Assembly: GCA_024639405.1 (NCBI GenBank)
Contig: JAHEIL010000013.1
Location: 44,979-108,978 of the forward strand
Length of the DNA: 64,000 nucleotides
Direction of reading: 5' to 3'
Source: Crocinitomicaceae bacterium
Lineage (GTDB): Bacteria > Bacteroidota > Bacteroidia > Flavobacteriales_D > Crocinitomicaceae
The first letter of the stretch is position 1; every line of letters starts with the position of its first letter. Shown piece by piece: positions 53,695 to 63,517 of the stretch. Under the pieces are notes generated by a model, which was given only the letters and a program-made list of their open reading frames with translations, was not told the origin of the DNA and did not search any database. The translations under genes were made by a program, and so were the position numbers.

Positions 53695-54356
53695 GCCTTT
53701 TTTGGGGTGAAGAAATCTTTTAAATAAAATGGCTCAAAATAAGCAACATCTTCAAATTCTTGTCGATTAAATTTTATCGTTGCAGCTGGTATTTGACCTT
53801 TTGCAGAAGCATGAATTGTTGCATCAATTTTACAATTTCGCCCCTTCCAACTTTCTACTAATTTAGTTGCACCATCACCAAAATAAACAAAAGGTTCAAA
53901 ATCTTGGTAAGAATTCTCATCAATGACATCCGCAGAAATCTCTTTTAATATTTTTAATGACGGAGAATAAATCGCATTAAAAACTTCCATACGACGGGCG
54001 TCAATTACAGAACACAAATTATAATCTGGGTAAAAATCTTTTGCTAATTGTGCCAATGAATACAATGCATCTATCGCAATTAAAGGAATGCCTAACGCAT
54101 AACACAATCCTTTTGCCGTAGAAACCCCAATTCTTAATCCAGTATATGAACCTGGTCCTGATGCAACAGAAATTGCAGCAAGACTTTCAAGTTTTAAATC
54201 GGCTTCTTCTAATATTGCTGCAATAAACAGTGTCAGGTTCTCACCGTGTGAATATTCTAAATCATTGCTTTCTTTCAATGCAATAAGTTCCCCATCCATA
54301 GAAATGGCCACTGAACAAACTTTTGTTGATGTTTCAATGTGTAGCAAATAATTCAT
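53691..54356 (-). CDS. tsaB: tRNA threonylcarbamoyladenosine biosynthesis protein TsaB
   Basis: LHIETSTKVCSVAI, ASGPGSYTGLRIGVSTAKGLCYA. Confidence 0.94.
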   Translation of the reverse strand: MNYLLHIETSTKVCSVAISMDGELIALKESNDLEYSHGENLTLFIAAILEEADLKLESLAAISVASGPGSYTGLRIGVSTAKGLCYALGIPLIAIDALYSLAQLAKDFYPDYNLCSVIDARRMEVFNAIYSPSLKILKEISADVIDENSYQDFEPFVYFGDGATKLVESWKGRNCKIDATIHASAKGQIPAATIKFNRQEFEDVAYFEPFYLKDFFTPKKA

Positions 54357-55051
54357 TTTTTCACTTCTAATTTAAATCCTATCCCATGAACATTTTGAAT
54401 ATGAATTGCTTGGTCATCTGCAAAATACTTTCTCAATTTTGTAATGAAAACATCCAAACTTCTTCCGACAAAATAATCATCTTGTCCCCAAACTGCGTTT
54501 AAAACCAATTCACGGGGCACTACTTGATTCATAAACTTACAAAGTATTTTAAGGATATGTGCTTCCTTTTTCGTTAAGGTCTTTTCAAAATTAGGATGCT
54601 TTAAAGTGAAGTTAACTGTATCAAATTGAAAATCACTGATAGTGATAATTAGCTCATCTTCAACTTCTTTATGTATGTTCACACGCTTCAATAAAGCTGT
54701 TAAGCGCAATTGTAATTCTTCTACACTAAATGGTTTTGTCAAATAATCATCACCACCCGACTTAAATCCTTCAATTTTATCTTCAGTCATTGCTTTTGCC
54801 GTCAAAAATAAAATTGGAATTGACTTATCAATAACACGAACATCCTTCGCTAATGAAAACCCATCTTTTTTAGGCATCATGACATCAAAAATACACAAAT
54901 GAAAAACCTCTTCATTGAAGCGTTTAAAACCTTCTGCTCCATCACTACACAAAGTAACTTGATAGCCTTCAGATTTCAAATGATCTGAAATGATGAATCC
55001 AAGACTTGTATCATCTTCAACCAGTAAAATTTTAATTTTCATGTGTGTCAA
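54353..55051 (-). CDS. OmpR-type response regulator (RprY-like), no adjacent kinase
   Basis: Receiver LLVEDD...DVMMPKKDGF...PFSVEEL plus winged helix ending NVHGIGFKLEV. Confidence 0.9.
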   Translation of the reverse strand: MTHMKIKILLVEDDTSLGFIISDHLKSEGYQVTLCSDGAEGFKRFNEEVFHLCIFDVMMPKKDGFSLAKDVRVIDKSIPILFLTAKAMTEDKIEGFKSGGDDYLTKPFSVEELQLRLTALLKRVNIHKEVEDELIITISDFQFDTVNFTLKHPNFEKTLTKKEAHILKILCKFMNQVVPRELVLNAVWGQDDYFVGRSLDVFITKLRKYFADDQAIHIQNVHGIGFKLEVKK

Positions 55052-55319: not shown

Positions 55320-55991
55320 ATGGTAAAAATATTAGTTATTGATGACGAGGAAGATATCCGTGAATTGTTGAAATACAATTTATTAAAAGAAGGATATGAA
55401 GTTGAAACAGCTGAAAACGGCCAGGTAGGAATTCAGCGATTAAAGCTTTTCAATCCAGATCTAATCATTTTAGATGTGATGATGCCAGGAATGGATGGCA
55501 TTGAAGTATGTGAATACATTCGCAACACATCTGAATACCAAAAAACACTCATTTGTTTCTTAACAGCGCGCAATGAAGATTATAGCCAAATTGCTGGACT
55601 TGATGCTGGCGCTGATGATTATGTAGCAAAACCTGTAAAACCAAAAGTACTTGTTAGTAGAATCAATGCTTTATTGCGAAGAAAAGGCATGTTACAAGAT
55701 GTAGAAAAAAACGATAAAAAAGGACTCATCATTAACCGTGAAAAATATTTAGTAGAGAAAGGCGCTGATGAAATACATTTACCAAGAAAAGAATTTGAAT
55801 TGTTAGCCTTATTAGCTTCAAGGCCTGACTATGTGTTTGAACGAGAAGTCATTTTAGAAAAAGTTTGGGGATCAGAAATAGTTGTTGGGGATCGTACAAT
55901 TGATGTTCATGTGAGAAAATTACGTGAGAAAATTGGGGAAGATTACATCAAAACAATTAAAGGAATTGGTTATAAATTTATCGAACAATAA
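55320..55991 (+). CDS. PhoB-like OmpR-family response regulator (RR1)
   Basis: ILVIDDEEDIRELLKYNL, DVMMPGMDGIEVCEYIR, DRTIDVHVRKLREKIGEDYIKTIKGIGYKF. Confidence 0.93.
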   Translation: MVKILVIDDEEDIRELLKYNLLKEGYEVETAENGQVGIQRLKLFNPDLIILDVMMPGMDGIEVCEYIRNTSEYQKTLICFLTARNEDYSQIAGLDAGADDYVAKPVKPKVLVSRINALLRRKGMLQDVEKNDKKGLIINREKYLVEKGADEIHLPRKEFELLALLASRPDYVFEREVILEKVWGSEIVVGDRTIDVHVRKLREKIGEDYIKTIKGIGYKFIEQ

Positions 55992-56020
55992 ACCTTTAGA
56001 TTAACATCTTATTGCTTATA

Positions 56021-56099
56021 TGTTAACCCAATGTTAACATCAATTAATAATCTAGTAACTATTCAGTAATTACTTAATAAAGCCATAGCCGTTTCTTTG
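56021..56099 (+). promoter_or_regulatory. 11-bp-phased direct-repeat array plus -7-like TTTCTTTG upstream of TonB receptor
   Basis: TGTTAAC (56021), TGTTAAC (56032), ATTAATA (56043), AGTAACT (56054), AGTAATT (56065); CCGTTTCTTTG with TTTCTTTG at 56092. Confidence 0.6.
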
Positions 56100-56119
56100 T
56101 ACCGAAAAAAATCAAAGAA

Positions 56120-58957
56120 ATGAATAAGTTAATTACAATCCTACTTTTACTCTTCTTTTTCCAACTTTCTTTTGCTCAAAATGGAGTTGTTAAAGGGAAA
56201 ATTATCGACAAAACAACCAAGGAAACTATTCCAGGAGCGAAAGTCTCAATTGATCAAACTGCATTTGCTGCAATGACAGATTTTGATGGAGCATTCACGT
56301 TTAAAGATGTTCCTTATGGTTCCTACAAAATCAGTGTAAAATACCCTCAGTATCAAAATCCTGATAATGTTCAATTTAAACTTTACAGCGCAGATACCAT
56401 GCGCATAGAAATTGAATTGGAAAAAATAGTCAAAGAAATTGGTGGTATTACAGTAAAAGGTAAATCGAATAAAGAATCAACAGGTACCTTATTAACCTTA
56501 CAACGAAAAAGTGCAACAGTTTTAGACGGTATTTCGCAAGAGGCGATGAAAAAAACACCTGATTCAAAAGCAAGTGATGTTTTAAAACGCGTTAGTGGTG
56601 CTAGTGTTCAAGACAATAAATTTGTTGTAATCCGTGGATTAAGTGATCGTTACAATTTTGCTTTAATTAATGGTGCGCCACTTCCAAGTACAGAAAGTGA
56701 TAAAAAAGCATTTTCATTTGATATATTTCCATCTAATATGTTGGACAACTTAATGATTATCAAAACAGCTACACCTGATTTACCAGGAGAATTTGCTGGA
56801 GGTGTGATTCAAATCAATACTTCAGAACCAAAAGACAAGAACTTTCAAAGCATTCAAATTGGTGGTGCGTACAATGCAATTACTACGTTTAAAAACTTCA
56901 GAACTTATGATGGTTCAAGCTTAGATTTCTTAGGTTTAGGTTCTTCGGATCGTCAAATACCGACTTCATTACCTGCTACTGCAACATTTGCTTCATTGAC
57001 TAGTGCTGAAAAAGCAAATCTTGCAAAAGGTGTTAATTTTTCATGGAGTACCAATGACAAAATGGCTATGCCGAATAGCAGTCTTCAATACTCATTAGGC
57101 CGTTCTTATAAAAAAGACGAAAAAGAATTTGGTTTTGTTTTAGCATACAGTTATCAAAACAATTTACAAACAAATAACATTACCAGAAGAGAATTTGAAG
57201 AACAAAGTACGGGTGTTATTAAGAAAATGGAATTAAACGATGATGTTTACACGCAAACAGTTTTAAATAGTGGAATGTTAAATGCAACATTTAAATTAAA
57301 TAAGAAAAATAAATTCTCATTTAAAAACTTGTATTCTATCAATAGTGAAGACCGTGTCAATATCCGAAAAGGAGTAAGAGAATTAGACAATGACCCACAT
57401 TTCTTTGAAAAATCTACCAACATTTGGTACACACAAAATAATTTATTTACTTCTCAACTTTTAGGAGAACATGATATTAAAAAAGGGAAATTAAACTGGA
57501 ACATTGGCTTCAGTGATGTACAACGAAATGTCCCTAACCTTCGAAGAATTGTTTACCGTAAATTAGCGTTAACAGAAGACGATCCTAACGAACAATATGT
57601 TGCAGTTATTCAAAATAATGGAACAATTCCAACTGCTGCTGGAAATATGTTTTGGTCTACAAACAATGAGAAAATTGCAAGTTTCAAATATGACTATGTG
57701 TTGCCATTTAAATTCAAGGAAACTGAAAATGAATTTAAAATTGGAGGTTTTCACCAATACAGAACAAGAGACTTTGTTGCAAGAAACTTTGGGTTTTCTC
57801 AATACAAACCAACAGGAAGTTCATTTAATAGTCAAATTTTATTGTTGCCAGAAGATCAATTATTCTCTTCAGAAAATTTAGGATTAATGAGTAATGGTCA
57901 AGGAGGATTCAAATTAGAAGAAGCATCTAAAGTGAATGATAGTTACCAAGCAAACTCTTTGTTAAATGCAGGATTTTTGATGTTGGATACGAAACCATTA
58001 GAAAAATTAAGATTAGTTGGTGGTGTTCGATTAGAATCTTACAACCAACAATTTAGTTACATAGAATTCGGTTCTAACAAACAAATCAATATAGATACGA
58101 CAGTAGTAGATTTATTACCATCAATTAACCTGATTTATAACTTGCATAAGAAAATGAATATTCGTTTAGCTTATTACAAAACAGTATCTCGACCAGAATT
58201 TAGAGAATTAGCACCTTTTGCATTTTATAATTTCGTATTAGACAATGTTCTTTCTGGAAACGATAAATTGAAAAGAGCATTAATCAATAATTACGATGTA
58301 CGTTTTGAATATTTTTTTAAAGAAAACCAAATGGTTAGTGTGTCAGGTTTCTACAAAGATTTCACTGATCCAATTGAGTTAATCAATAGAACAGGAACTT
58401 CAGGAGCACCAGAATTATATTATTCAAATGTTTCAAAAGTTATTAATTATGGTGTTGAATTAGAATACAGAGTAAACCTAGACTTTATGTCAAAAAACAA
58501 AGAACATAAATTCTGGAGTAGAACAGCATTGTACACCAATTTATCGTTGATTAAATCAAAAGTTAACTTAGATGGCTTCTTTGGTTCTGGAGTTGAACGA
58601 CCATTACAAGGACAGTCACCTTATATTGTAAATGCTGGATTGAATTACAATTCATTGAAAAATGATTGGTCAGTTAACTTATCTTATAATATTGTTGGAC
58701 AACGTATATACATTGTAGGAAACGATCAAGAACCTAGTGTTTGGGAAAACGGAAGAAATGTTGTTGATTTACAAGTATCTAAAAAGATCAAACAATTTGA
58801 CATTCGTTTCTCTGTAAAAGATATTTTAGCTCAAAAACTAATTTACTTCCAAGATTTAAACAACAATCAAAAATTTGATGATGGTACAGATAATACATGG
58901 CAAGAATCATCTTTTGGAAGTACCGTTTCACTTTCTATCAAATACAATTTTAAATAA
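56120..58957 (+). CDS. TonB-dependent outer-membrane receptor with carboxypeptidase-regulatory-like N-terminal domain
   Basis: GVVKGKIIDKTTKETIPGAKVSI...; plug DVLKRVSGASVQDNKFVVIRGLSDRY; C-terminal beta-barrel ending SIKYNFK. Confidence 0.92.
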   Translation: MNKLITILLLLFFFQLSFAQNGVVKGKIIDKTTKETIPGAKVSIDQTAFAAMTDFDGAFTFKDVPYGSYKISVKYPQYQNPDNVQFKLYSADTMRIEIELEKIVKEIGGITVKGKSNKESTGTLLTLQRKSATVLDGISQEAMKKTPDSKASDVLKRVSGASVQDNKFVVIRGLSDRYNFALINGAPLPSTESDKKAFSFDIFPSNMLDNLMIIKTATPDLPGEFAGGVIQINTSEPKDKNFQSIQIGGAYNAITTFKNFRTYDGSSLDFLGLGSSDRQIPTSLPATATFASLTSAEKANLAKGVNFSWSTNDKMAMPNSSLQYSLGRSYKKDEKEFGFVLAYSYQNNLQTNNITRREFEEQSTGVIKKMELNDDVYTQTVLNSGMLNATFKLNKKNKFSFKNLYSINSEDRVNIRKGVRELDNDPHFFEKSTNIWYTQNNLFTSQLLGEHDIKKGKLNWNIGFSDVQRNVPNLRRIVYRKLALTEDDPNEQYVAVIQNNGTIPTAAGNMFWSTNNEKIASFKYDYVLPFKFKETENEFKIGGFHQYRTRDFVARNFGFSQYKPTGSSFNSQILLLPEDQLFSSENLGLMSNGQGGFKLEEASKVNDSYQANSLLNAGFLMLDTKPLEKLRLVGGVRLESYNQQFSYIEFGSNKQINIDTTVVDLLPSINLIYNLHKKMNIRLAYYKTVSRPEFRELAPFAFYNFVLDNVLSGNDKLKRALINNYDVRFEYFFKENQMVSVSGFYKDFTDPIELINRTGTSGAPELYYSNVSKVINYGVELEYRVNLDFMSKNKEHKFWSRTALYTNLSLIKSKVNLDGFFGSGVERPLQGQSPYIVNAGLNYNSLKNDWSVNLSYNIVGQRIYIVGNDQEPSVWENGRNVVDLQVSKKIKQFDIRFSVKDILAQKLIYFQDLNNNQKFDDGTDNTWQESSFGSTVSLSIKYNFK

Positions 58958-58975
58958 TAACTATTTAAATATATA

Positions 58976-59005
58976 AAAAGGTGAGGCTTAAGTCTCACCT
59001 TTTTT
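58976..59005 (+). terminator. Intrinsic terminator after TonB receptor
   Basis: AAAAAGGTGAG...CTCACCTTTTTT. Confidence 0.9.
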
Positions 59006-59041
59006 GTTTCTAAATATACTATCATCTGATATAAAATTCAA

Positions 59042-59131
59042 TGTTAAGAAATAAATCACATCTATTAATATAAAGATAATTTAAGGATAAAAATAGAATA
59101 ACGCAACACGAAAAGAATGTCCGTTACTTTG
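59042..59131 (+). promoter_or_regulatory. 11-bp-phased repeat array plus TTACTTTG upstream of the T9SS cargo gene
   Basis: TGTTAAG (59042), AAATCAC (59053), ATTAATA (59064), GATAATT (59075), GATAAAA (59086), AATAACG (59097); CCGTTACTTTG with TTACTTTG at 59124. Confidence 0.45.
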
Positions 59132-59154: not shown

Positions 59155-61689
59155 ATGAAAAATTATTACTTTACAATTTTAGCGCTTTGCTTTTCTGCTG
59201 CTTTGAATGCACAAGAAGCATTTTGGACTGTAACCAACTACCGTGGTGCATTTCCTGTAACAGACAACACAACTGCTACTAACTGGGCAAGTGGATGGTC
59301 AAATTTTGATCCTGAAAATGCAGTTTATGGAGCACCAACTACAACAATATCTGCTGACATTACTACAAATACTACATTAAGTGGAATCGTATTGTTACAA
59401 AATAAAGTATTTGTTAAAAACAATGCTATTTTAACGATTCAACCAGGTACAATTATTCGTGGTGATAAATTAACTCAAGGCACATTAATCATTACTCGTG
59501 GTGCAAAAATCATTGCTAACGGAACGGCTACAAACCCGATTGTTATGACATCTAACGAAGCAGTTGGTGCGCGTAACGAAGGAGATTGGGGTGGTTTAGT
59601 AATCTTAGGATTGGCTAAAAACAACCAACCAGGTGGTGTAGCAAATGTTGAAGGTTTAGTTGTTTCAACTGACACTCAATTTGGAGGTAATTTTGATAAT
59701 GACAACTCAGGTATTTTAAAATATGTACGTGTTGAATTTTCTGGAATTGCATTGCAACCAAATAAAGAAACAAATGGAATTACATTTGGATCTGTAGGGT
59801 CTGCAACACAAGTTGATTATGTTCAAGTTTCTTTTTCAGGAGATGATTCATTTGAATGGTTTGGTGGAACAGTTAATTGTAAACACTTAATCGCTTACAG
59901 AGGATTAGATGACGATTTCGATACTGACTTTGGATACAGAGGTAAAGTTCAATTTGGATTAGCTATTCGTGATAAAGATCTATCTGATGCACCAGGTGAT
60001 TCAAATTGTTTTGAATCAGATAATGATGCTACTGGAAGTGCTGCTCAACCTAAAACTAGTCCAATTTTTTCTAACATGACAATTGTTGGTCCAAAAGGAA
60101 ATGGTACAATCGTATTACCTACAGGTGAGAAATTTGAAAAAGCATTTAGATTAAGAAGAAATACTGCAACAAGTGTATTTAATTCATTAATTACAGGATG
60201 GGAAAAAGGATTGTCTATTGAAAATGCTCCAACAGTTGCTAATACAAATGGAGATACTTTAAAATTTGGGAACAATTCATTAAGTAACTTTGCAACTAAT
60301 GCAAATGTAATAACTTCTATAGATGCTTCAGTTGCTTTCTATGCAGGTATGTTTAATGCAAATTCAAATGACTCTACAAATACAATTGCACAAATCAATT
60401 GGGTTAGTTTGTTTCCTGCTTTAGGAACTGCTCCAGATGCACGTTTAAATTCAACTTCAACAGTTGCTACAACTGCAAGTTTTATGGCTAACAAATTCTA
60501 TAACTTACCAACTCCAACTGCAACACTAAGTTATACTTATTGTGCTGGTGCAACTGCAACTGCTTTAACTGCAACTGCTGTAACAGGTAATTCTTTGAAA
60601 TGGTATACACAAGCAACTGGTGGAACAGCTTCAACTACTGCTCCAACTCCTGCTACAAGTACAGCTGGTACATATACTTACTATGTTAGTCAAACAAACG
60701 CTGCTGGTGATGAGAGTAAAAGAGTAGCAATTACTGTAACTGTTAATGCTGCGCCTGCAGTACCTACAATTACAGCAAATGGACCTACTACTTTTTGTAC
60801 AGGTGGAAATGTTGTTTTAACTTCAAGTGCTACAACAGGTAATGTTTGGTCAACAAATGCTACAATTGATTCTATAATAGTTAATACTTCAGGTTCATAT
60901 ACAGTAACTTATACAGATGTTAACGGATGTTCTGCTACTTCAGCTCCTACAACTGTTAACGTTAGTAATGCTCCAGTACCAACAATCAATGCAAGTGCAA
61001 CAAGCGGATGTTCAGGTGATACAATTGTTTTAACTGCCTCTACATCTGATTCTTATACTTGGTCAAATGGTGCTACAACACAAGCAATTAACGTTATAGC
61101 TGGTGATACTTTCACAGTTGTTTCTACTAATTCAAATGCTTGTAATGGAGTTGGTACTTCTGCACCAGTTATAATTACATTTACTCAAACACCTACAGCT
61201 GCTGGTTCATTTACAATCAATGGTAATATCGTAACATTTGCGAATACATCTACAAATGCTACATCTTATTCATGGGATTTTGATGATTTCACAAACTCTT
61301 CTGCAATGGCACCAACACACGCTTTTGCTGGAAATGGGGTTTACAATGTTGTTTTAACTGCAATTAATGGTGCATGTCAAAACACAGCTGAATTAACCGT
61401 AGCAATTACAGTAGGTGTAGAAGAATTAGCTGGATTAGAAGAAGTAAAATTATTCCCTAACCCAACTTCATCTAATGCAATGATGGTAATTAATTCTAAA
61501 GAAAACACAACTGCATCAATTGCAATTGTAAATCAATTAGGTCAATTAATTTCTACAAATACTATTACATTATTAGCTAAAGAAAACAACTTTGATTTAA
61601 ATGTTAACACATTTGATAATGGAATTTACACTGTAATTATTTCTACTGAATTAGGAAATGTTACAAGAAGATTAGTTGTACAAAAATAA
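59155..61689 (+). CDS. Large secreted T9SS type A sorting-domain protein with PKD/Ig-like repeats
   Basis: Signal peptide; PKD-like YSWDFDDFTNSSAMAPTHAF; C-terminal KLFPNPTSSNAMMV...GIYTVIISTELGNVTRRLVVQK. Confidence 0.88.
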   Translation: MKNYYFTILALCFSAALNAQEAFWTVTNYRGAFPVTDNTTATNWASGWSNFDPENAVYGAPTTTISADITTNTTLSGIVLLQNKVFVKNNAILTIQPGTIIRGDKLTQGTLIITRGAKIIANGTATNPIVMTSNEAVGARNEGDWGGLVILGLAKNNQPGGVANVEGLVVSTDTQFGGNFDNDNSGILKYVRVEFSGIALQPNKETNGITFGSVGSATQVDYVQVSFSGDDSFEWFGGTVNCKHLIAYRGLDDDFDTDFGYRGKVQFGLAIRDKDLSDAPGDSNCFESDNDATGSAAQPKTSPIFSNMTIVGPKGNGTIVLPTGEKFEKAFRLRRNTATSVFNSLITGWEKGLSIENAPTVANTNGDTLKFGNNSLSNFATNANVITSIDASVAFYAGMFNANSNDSTNTIAQINWVSLFPALGTAPDARLNSTSTVATTASFMANKFYNLPTPTATLSYTYCAGATATALTATAVTGNSLKWYTQATGGTASTTAPTPATSTAGTYTYYVSQTNAAGDESKRVAITVTVNAAPAVPTITANGPTTFCTGGNVVLTSSATTGNVWSTNATIDSIIVNTSGSYTVTYTDVNGCSATSAPTTVNVSNAPVPTINASATSGCSGDTIVLTASTSDSYTWSNGATTQAINVIAGDTFTVVSTNSNACNGVGTSAPVIITFTQTPTAAGSFTINGNIVTFANTSTNATSYSWDFDDFTNSSAMAPTHAFAGNGVYNVVLTAINGACQNTAELTVAITVGVEELAGLEEVKLFPNPTSSNAMMVINSKENTTASIAIVNQLGQLISTNTITLLAKENNFDLNVNTFDNGIYTVIISTELGNVTRRLVVQK

Positions 61690-61703
61690 TAATCATACTA
61701 ATG

Positions 61704-61736
61704 AAAGGGTTGGTTTTAAAACCAACCCTTTTTTTT
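61704..61736 (+). terminator. Intrinsic terminator after cargo gene
   Basis: AAAGGGTTGGTTTT/AAAACCAACCCTTTTTTTT. Confidence 0.92.
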
Positions 61737-61748
61737 AATTAATATACT

Positions 61749-62435
61749 ATGGAAAATTTAAAAGGACATACATTACTACTTGTTGATGATGAACAAGATA
61801 TTTTAGATTTTCTTTCTTATAATTTAAAAAAAGAAGGTTTTAAAGTTTTTACTGCTTCTAATGGTGAAGAAGCCGTTAAAATGGTTCAGCAAGTAAATCC
61901 ATCATTAATTGTTATGGACATTATGATGCCTAAAATGGACGGAATTGAAGCGTGCCAAATTATCCGCAAAGACCTAAATATTACTCAGCCAATTATTGCA
62001 TTTTTAACATCTAGATCAGAGGATTATTCTCAAATAGCAGGATTTGAAGCAGGTGCAGATGATTACATTAACAAACCTATTCGGCCTAGACTTTTGATAA
62101 GTAAAGTTGAATCATTATTAAGAAGATTAGACCGCCCTGTTAACTTAGAAAACAGCCTTTCAAATTCATTAAAAATTGATCGTGATAAGTTCATGATTGA
62201 GTTAAATAATGAGAAAATTATTTTGCCTAAAAAAGAATTTGAATTGTTAGAATTATTAGCTAGTAGACCAGGGAAAGTTTACAATAGAGAACAAATATTA
62301 TCTATCGTTTGGGGAAATGAAACGATTGTAGGTGAAAGAACTATTGATGTTCACATCAGAAAATTACGAGAAAAGCTAGGAGATGAGTATATTCGCACTA
62401 TTAAAGGAGTTGGATATACATTTAGCGAAGCGTGA
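61749..62435 (+). CDS. PhoB-like OmpR-family response regulator (RR2)
   Basis: LLLVDDEQDILDFLSYNL, DIMMPKMDGIEACQIIR, ERTIDVHIRKLREKLGDEYIRTIKGVGYTF. Confidence 0.93.
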   Translation: MENLKGHTLLLVDDEQDILDFLSYNLKKEGFKVFTASNGEEAVKMVQQVNPSLIVMDIMMPKMDGIEACQIIRKDLNITQPIIAFLTSRSEDYSQIAGFEAGADDYINKPIRPRLLISKVESLLRRLDRPVNLENSLSNSLKIDRDKFMIELNNEKIILPKKEFELLELLASRPGKVYNREQILSIVWGNETIVGERTIDVHIRKLREKLGDEYIRTIKGVGYTFSEA

Positions 62436-63517
62436 AAAATATAAAACCTATACATTTATTAATTGGAGGAAGTGGGATAATTTTTATAATTACATTAATT
62501 ATATCCTTTATAATTAATTTTCAAATTATTAATTTTCCTCTTTGGGTAATAATCGGATTACCAATAGTAACTGCATTAATTTCTTATGCAGTTTTTTATT
62601 TTTTTATTAAGTATTTCATAAATGATCGTTTAAAAATATTATACCGCTCTATTCGTAAAGATAAATTTACACCTGAAAACTCGATCAAGTTTAAGCTTAC
62701 AGATGATGTAATTGCCGACGCTGAAATAGAAACTCAACGCTGGACAGAAGAGCGAAATAAAGAAATTGTAAAACTTAAAGAACAAGAAGAATTTAGACGT
62801 GAATTTTTGGGGAATTTAGCTCATGAGTTAAAAACACCTGTATTTTCAATTCAAGGTTATATTCTAACTTTATTAGATGGTGGACTAGAAGATGAAACGG
62901 TTAATCGTTCTTTTTTAGAAAGAGCATCTAAAGCAACGGATAGAATGGCTAACATTTTAGATGATTTAGATCAAATAACTAAATTAGAAGTGAATGCGTT
63001 TAAAATTGAGATGCGTTCATTTGATATCAAAGAATTAATCGTAGAAGTATTAGAATCTTTAGAATTAATCGCATCAGAAAAAAACATTACTTTAAAACTT
63101 CACAAAGATTACAACTCAAAATTTGTACAAGGTGATCGTTCTAAAATAGCTCAAGTATTAATAAATCTAATTAGTAATTCCATTTTTTATGGAAATATAA
63201 ATGGTAATACTATAATTAGACTATTTAGTATGGACAATATTATTACAATTGAAGTATCAGATGATGGCCCAGGCATTGAACAACAACATATTCCTCGTTT
63301 ATTTGAACGTTTCTATAGAGTTGAAAAATCACGTAACAGAAATGAAGGTGGTTCAGGATTAGGATTAGCTATCGTTAAACATATAATTGAATCTCATGGA
63401 CAAACAATATCCGTTAGAAGCACAGTAGGAATTGGAAGTACTTTTTCTTTTAGTTTAGATAAAAGTAAAACGCAATCACCTAGTTTATACTCTTCTAGAG
63501 GAATACAAATTAAATAA
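62432..63517 (+). CDS. PhoR-like sensor histidine kinase
   Basis: H-box FLGNLAHELKTPVFSIQGYI, N-box LINLISNSIFYG, G-boxes DDGPGI and GGSGLGLAIVKHIIESHG; overlaps RR2 by 4 nt. Confidence 0.95.
   Translation: MKNIKPIHLLIGGSGIIFIITLIISFIINFQIINFPLWVIIGLPIVTALISYAVFYFFIKYFINDRLKILYRSIRKDKFTPENSIKFKLTDDVIADAEIETQRWTEERNKEIVKLKEQEEFRREFLGNLAHELKTPVFSIQGYILTLLDGGLEDETVNRSFLERASKATDRMANILDDLDQITKLEVNAFKIEMRSFDIKELIVEVLESLELIASEKNITLKLHKDYNSKFVQGDRSKIAQVLINLISNSIFYGNINGNTIIRLFSMDNIITIEVSDDGPGIEQQHIPRLFERFYRVEKSRNRNEGGSGLGLAIVKHIIESHGQTISVRSTVGIGSTFSFSLDKSKTQSPSLYSSRGIQIK

Follow-up and report, generated by a model that had tools for sequence, protein, structure and literature searches.

Phased multi-unit arrays resembling Pho boxes at the promoters of a TonB-dependent receptor gene and a secreted cargo gene in a Crocinitomicaceae bacterium

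Systems close to the one considered here have been described for Escherichia coli PhoB, for ArcA, whose sites have a TTAA-like core, for PhoP of Riemerella anatipestifer, a relative in the Flavobacteriia, and for receptor and exoprotein gene pairs of Flavobacterium johnsoniae and Caulobacter crescentus. PhoB binds Pho boxes of 11-nt units, and these boxes are defined as direct repeats of about 11 nt, 7 conserved and 4 variable, with a consensus that varies between species (PMC4415409). DNA affinity purification sequencing (DAP-seq) of Riemerella PhoP gave the core TTTAACA, supported by electrophoretic mobility shift assays that include one TonB-receptor promoter (PMC9603813). In F. johnsoniae, the PUSIV locus (Fjoh_0543 to Fjoh_0546) joins phoBR to the receptor gene Fjoh_0545 and the exoprotein gene Fjoh_0546, which rise by 8.0 and 9.9 log2, respectively, upon depletion of inorganic phosphate (Pi), and the F. 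johnsoniae exoprotein FII is related to the Caulobacter lipoprotein ElpS (PMC8115612). ElpS is made under phosphate starvation, and its gene adjoins the receptor gene CC0171 and genes of the type II secretion system (T2SS) (PMC2996285). In the open-access literature, our searches turned up no account of Pho boxes in Flavobacterium or Bacteroidetes. Here we analyzed a 64-kb stretch (the window; G000:C17:44979-108978) of the 2.63-Mb, 98% complete genome of a Crocinitomicaceae bacterium, in which a gene for a TonB-dependent receptor and a gene for a cargo protein of the type IX secretion system (T9SS) each carry an array of phased direct repeats at the promoter and lie between two PhoB-like response regulators, RR1 and RR2.

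The two promoters share one design: direct repeats with a TAA core are phased at 11 bp, and their spacing to a CTTTG -7 element is constant (in the numbering used here the final G of TTTG is -1, and all promoter features are on the plus strand). The receptor operator (56021..56082) comprises six units starting at 56021, 56032, 56043, 56054, 56065 and 56076, with TAA cores at -76, -65, -55, -44, -33 and -22. Its -7 element, TTTCTTTG, lies at 56092..56099, and the CTTTG end keeps its distance from the array throughout the aligned promoters of the genus. The cargo operator (59064..59103) comprises four units starting at 59064, 59075, 59086 and 59097, which form invariant alignment columns. With a distal TGTTAAG unit at 59042..59048, its cores lie at -87, -66, -55, -44 and -33, upstream of the -7 element TTACTTTG at 59124..59131; the TGTTAA of the distal unit is kept as an unselected column in 21 non-redundant cargo promoters.

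A sequence-only reading had previously described these repeats, and on re-reading the DNA we found all of its coordinates, its heptamers and both 27-nt distances from the last named repeat to the -7 element to be exact. It proposed a strict 11-bp phase; at the receptor promoter the cores step by 11, 10, 11, 11 and 11 bp, because the TAA of unit 3 sits one base earlier, and this 10-bp step between units 2 and 3 is itself largely conserved. Its five receptor units are joined by a sixth that it had overlooked, AATAAAG at 56076 (-22), kept in many relatives. AAATCAC (59053), listed as a cargo unit, is instead an empty slot, the conserved layout being -87, a two-turn gap and then -66/-55/-44/-33. 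Similarly, the two exact TGTTAAC copies had been taken as the strongest part of the arrangement, whereas the genus-wide core is formed by the -55/-44/-33 units and CTTTG. The shared CCGTTWCTTTG core stands in the closest genomes and becomes roughly TTNCTTTG across the genus.

Compared with a primary-sigma promoter of the TAnnTTTG/-33 type, the -7 element is present as TTNCTTTG or TACTTTTG, the latter a perfect TAnnTTTG carried by some cargo promoters, and no TTTG-type -33 element was found 17-23 nt upstream of the -7 element in either window promoter. This suggests that an activator array stands in for the -33 element in Bacteroidota promoters. The Pho-box unit layout that had been invoked, namely 11-nt units with 7 conserved and 4 variable positions and at least two units in tandem, is seen at both promoters, at a constant position immediately before the promoter core. 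The E. coli-type CTGTCAT core is absent from the arrays, whose core is TAA/TTAAY. The arrays are a variant of the Pho-box/ArcA-type tandem operator adapted to Bacteroidota promoters.

The register is maintained over large evolutionary distances. Promoters fetched by receptor homology, and not by the pattern, keep the phasing and the spacing to the -7 element even though receptor identity drops to about 40%. The pattern TAA-N8-TAA-N8-TAA-N25-CTTTG gave 39 matches in 26 genus genomes, 35 of them at orthologous receptor or cargo promoters (classification used the locus for 30 of the 39, and for the remaining nine the position on the contig and the sequence), and the reversed pattern gave 9. Seventeen loci show the exact -66/-55/-44/-33 cargo register, and in the cargo alignment hardly any column is invariant outside the four TAA cores and the -7 element. 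In comparisons with the two closest genomes, the receptor gene has diverged at 44.5% and 46.8% of its fourfold sites, while the receptor array and core (-79..-1) differ at only 2/79 and 6/79 positions and the adjoining flank (-120..-80) at 19/41 and 17/41, so the boundary of conservation at the receptor promoter is the boundary of the array. Between unit 2 and the -7 element, even the 4-bp spacers have hardly changed in these genomes at 45% fourfold divergence (56018-56099). Such near-unchanged spacers exceed what simple direct repeats need, and a second protein or an overlapping site is possible.

We also assessed how often such arrays arise by chance. In dinucleotide shuffles, a run of at least four TAA at 11 bp had P=0.0004 at the receptor promoter and 0.0034 at the cargo promoter, rising to about 0.008 and 0.02, respectively, when any period from 8 to 14 was allowed; these values alone are unconvincing because core and period were picked after the sequence had been seen. 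The genome-wide and comparative tests settle that the arrays are not chance. Period-11 runs of at least four TAA occur in the window at these two promoters only, and the TAA-N8-TAA-N8-TAA-N25-CTTTG pattern occurs twice in the 2.63-Mb genome, at both window promoters. Genome-wide, four TAA separated by N8 occur at 6 sites. Two are the promoters themselves, one precedes a phosphate-selective porin gene, another is intergenic and two are intragenic. Covariance models specific to each promoter found no further convincing target in the genome (best others E = 0.07 and 0.26), and the receptor model recovers the cargo promoter only at E = 0.33. A pattern of TGTTAACN4TGTTAAC with 3 mismatches was discarded as too loose, giving 464 matches against 1385 for its reversed control.

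To extend the analysis to the order, 196 Flavobacteriales genomes were scanned with two four-unit rules. The receptor-type rule (TAA at -55/-44/-33/-22 plus CTTTG) gave 19 matches in 18 genomes, compared with 0 for the reversed control and 1 for a period-12 version, and the cargo-type rule gave 21 matches, compared with 6 for its reversed control. Homologous receptor, cargo or regulator genes stand at 32 of the 40 matches. For the receptor-type rule these make up 13/19, at receptors (the genus genomes, L196, L198, L199, L201, L209 and L210), at cargo-like genes (L208 and L211) and at one regulator-kinase operon (L206, in G105), which itself bears the array; for the cargo-type rule, 19/21 precede a cargo homolog by 15-35 nt, some of these homologs being lipoprotein-like and about 410-450 aa long (L218-L221 and L226). 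Since the matches were selected on TAA and CTTTG, those columns are necessarily constant, and the informative parts are the downstream genes, the controls and the unselected columns, among which T at -67, TGTTAA at -90..-85 and C/T after TAA are conserved. Many of these loci share ancestry, so the counts are not independent events. Other matches lie before other or unknown genes, among them those for a Band_7 protein, a kinase-like protein and unannotated open reading frames (L197, L203, L204, L205/L238, L162 and L169), and these are either chance or further targets. Collectively, the arrays are a real, strongly constrained regulatory architecture.

The genes of the locus run in the order RprY-like regulator (minus strand), RR1, TonB receptor, T9SS cargo, RR2 and histidine kinase, the last five on the plus strand. 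The receptor (56120..58957) is TonB-Xanth-Caul-like, with CarboxypepD_reg, plug and barrel domains by Pfam and NCBIfam, and the cargo protein (59155..61689) has an N-terminal domain of the ElpS/FII kind, assigned by gene context, followed by Ig_7, PKD and Por_Secre_tail. Intrinsic terminators follow both genes, at 58975..59004 and 61703..61732, so the two look like separate transcription units, each with its own promoter. In some genus members (L055 and relatives) the receptor-terminator hairpin includes TGTTAACA, so that the terminator overlaps the distal cargo unit. RR2 (61749..62435), with its domains assigned by Pfam and NCBIfam, is paired with the histidine kinase (62432..63517), which has a PhoR/PnpS-like core by Pfam and NCBIfam and no sensor domain by Pfam. 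The RR2-kinase start lies 17 nt past the cargo terminator, and 61690-61748 holds no obvious promoter of its own; if the cargo promoter reads through into RR2-kinase, positive feedback would follow. RR1 (55320..55991) is an orphan PhoB-like regulator with receiver and winged helix (Pfam, NCBIfam and tree), and no kinase adjoins it. The third OmpR-family regulator, the RprY-like one (54353-55051; 273.9 bits against a cut-off of 370), adjoins RR1, and the pair is kept together in the genus.

The sequence-only reading held that one or both flanking regulators co-regulate the two promoters. In its favor, a single design is present at both promoters and kept in orthologs, whose loss of phasing and spacing it had named as a refutation, and PhoB-like regulators with kinases lie beside array genes in several families; the binder itself may be RR1, RR2 or an unlinked third regulator. 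RR1 and RR2 both have a receiver and Trans_reg_C, a phospho-acceptor Asp and a PhoB-like recognition helix, as expected of PhoB-like members of the OmpR family. Their recognition helices (DRTIDVHVRKLREK in RR1, ERTIDVHIRKLREK in RR2) are nearly equal and resemble that of E. coli PhoB (DRTVDVHIRRLRKA; the RprY-like protein has GRSLDVFITKLRKY), so their target sites are probably alike, and sequence gives no basis for preferring either. In the tree, RR1 is a genus-level paralog, while RR2 clusters with regulators that are paired with kinases and adjoin receptor or cargo genes in other families (moderate forks 94/90 and 86/91; the support for RR2 and its relatives in the family is 100/99). The RR2 protein matches its ortholog from the closest relative (L061) at every residue, even though 22/72 fourfold sites differ. 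In at least four families, and in varied arrangements, RR2-type regulators are again found next to receptor, cargo or array-bearing genes, and a regulator adjoins an array-bearing gene in G045, G064, G046 and G196.

We consider it likely, though well short of certain, that these arrays are multi-unit PhoB/PhoP-type operators activating the receptor and cargo promoters, most probably through RR2, in a phosphate-linked module. In such a model, the kinase encoded after RR2 would phosphorylate RR2, the most likely regulator, and perhaps its paralog RR1 too. The phosphorylated regulator would bind head-to-tail, one monomer per 11-bp unit, on a single face of the helix, and the proximal units (-44/-33/-22) would replace the missing -33 element and pass RNA polymerase to the CTTTG -7 element. 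Judging from PhoB at Pho boxes of 11-nt units (PMC4415409), one monomer per unit with proximal contact to RNA polymerase is the simplest reading of this geometry, and from the position of the array and its fixed register to the -7 element we infer activation rather than repression. Receptor and cargo, as separate units, would be co-induced by one signal, most likely phosphate limitation, and might cooperate at the cell surface as a phosphorus-scavenging module of the ElpS/FII type.

Phosphate is probably the signal for both promoters. The strong response of the F. johnsoniae PUSIV receptor and exoprotein genes to Pi depletion points this way (PMC8115612). The adjacency of cargo homologs and TonB receptors is conserved across phyla, as in ElpS/FII modules: cargo homologs adjoin receptor and gsp (T2SS) genes in Indioceanicola, and receptors in Parabacteroides and Hymenobacter. 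A blind match in exact register (L202, in G076) lies upstream of a PlcP-like metallophosphoesterase gene followed by a glycosyltransferase gene of the lipid-remodelling type, and this pair resembles the Pho-regulated lipid-remodelling operon of phosphorus stress (PMC4796936). For the cargo domain itself, no sequence match was found in the PDB, and an AlphaFold model of the N-terminal domain from a 4-sequence alignment had a mean predicted local distance difference test (pLDDT) score of 34.

Several points weigh against this phosphate-linked activation. RR1 scores 206.6 and 200.6 bits and RR2 200.5 and 201.7 bits against the NCBIfam PhoB equivalogs TIGR02154 and NF053854 (cut-offs 296.2 and 270), and because they fall below these cut-offs we term them PhoB-like and not PhoB. 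A bound array could instead repress. The apparent likeness of the window module to F. johnsoniae PUSIV is based on the order of the genes and on how the families are described. PhoU (PF01895) is absent from the genome (the control search was positive in 13/14 genomes), which does carry a PiT-type transporter with PhoU_div, and without PhoU the sensing of Pi would have to proceed by other means. The exact-register rule has no other target in the genome, and no wide Pho regulon is seen. The promoter of the phosphate-selective porin gene (PF07396, OprP; L071, G000:C6:9500-16500) has a phased TAA array at G000:C6:12440-12475, with cores at -49/-38/-27/-16, 6 bp out of register. This porin gene is divergent from a PhoU_div-PHO4 pair. 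Its promoter array is conserved in G025, although the porin encoded downstream there shows only about 28% identity, which would fit an exchange of the gene beneath a retained promoter. No array of this type was found upstream of the other porin loci examined, and as a related site the porin array is suggestive only.

Among the alternatives, the one that survives best, although we judge it unlikely, is that the arrays are OmpR-family operators answering a non-phosphate signal, such as redox or envelope status, through a global PhoP- or ArcA-like system. The absence of PhoU favors it, as do ArcA sites of 2-5 direct repeats at 11 bp (PMC3798270) and a Riemerella PhoP motif that is ArcA-like, with Bat-operon and cytochrome genes among the direct targets (PMC9603813). 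However, the conserved targets here are a receptor and an ElpS/FII-like exoprotein, the kind of combination that F. johnsoniae induces when Pi is depleted, and the PlcP-type operon is matched as well. Less likely still, an unlinked regulator binds the arrays while RR1 and RR2 are adjacent for other reasons: several genera of the same family keep the receptor array with no regulator detected within 1.5 kb (L196, L198, L199 and L201), but the recurrence of RR2-type regulators in at least four families and the array at the L206 operon itself argue for linkage. Finally, it is very improbable that the phasing stems from intrinsic DNA curvature, from an UP-like element or incidentally from the AT-richness of intergenic DNA, and this reading was rejected on the order-wide controls and the conservation footprint, since despite two AT-rich regions and modest any-period shuffle values the register is exact over large divergence, the period-12 control gave 1 match against 19 and 21, and TpA steps in TAA/TTAA break A-tract bending.

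Beyond phosphate-linked activation at this locus, we tentatively propose, as a reading that may well prove wrong, an order-wide "long Pho box" in Flavobacteriales: five to six TAA-cored 11-bp units in strict register to the -7 element of a promoter lacking a -33 element, dedicated in this genome to two genes only, for a receptor and an ElpS-like exoprotein, and served by a PhoB-like pair without PhoU that would sense phosphate or a phosphorylated glycan off the Pst/PhoU route. If true, such sensing differs from the textbook Pst/PhoU route. A specific promoter rule in several families allows Pho-type target genes to be listed directly in a large environmental bacterial group, and tying an abundant, uncharacterized receptor and exoprotein pair (F. 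johnsoniae PUSIV, Caulobacter ElpS) to a defined regulator makes its function testable.

In comparison with known systems, ArcA sites likewise consist of two to five direct repeats at 11-bp spacing read by a regulator of the OmpR/PhoB family, but they vary in number and position and mostly repress, whereas the arrays described here keep a constant register to the -7 element (PMC3798270). Riemerella PhoP is likewise a PhoP/PhoB-like regulator, with the core TTTAACA, and has a broad target set; the passages of its report considered here give no phased multi-unit array or -7 spacing (PMC9603813). The E. coli PhoB Pho box has the same 11-nt units (7 + 4) upstream of the -7/-10 element and the same kind of recognition helix, and differs in having canonically two units against five to six here and a CTGTCAT core against TAA/TTAAY; the arrays described here stand before a Bacteroidota -7 element, in a genome with no PhoU. 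Caulobacter ElpS (CC0170) and CC0171 are likewise a receptor and secreted-protein pair tied to phosphate starvation, although ElpS is secreted by the T2SS and CC0171 itself is reported as constitutive (PMC2996285). In F. johnsoniae PUSIV, FII is described as a lipoprotein and not a T9SS cargo, and is likened to the present cargo by gene context and family description only; as at the locus described here, a PhoBR-type pair adjoins the genes for a TonB receptor and an ElpS-like extracellular protein, and there the module is strongly induced by low Pi (PMC8115612).

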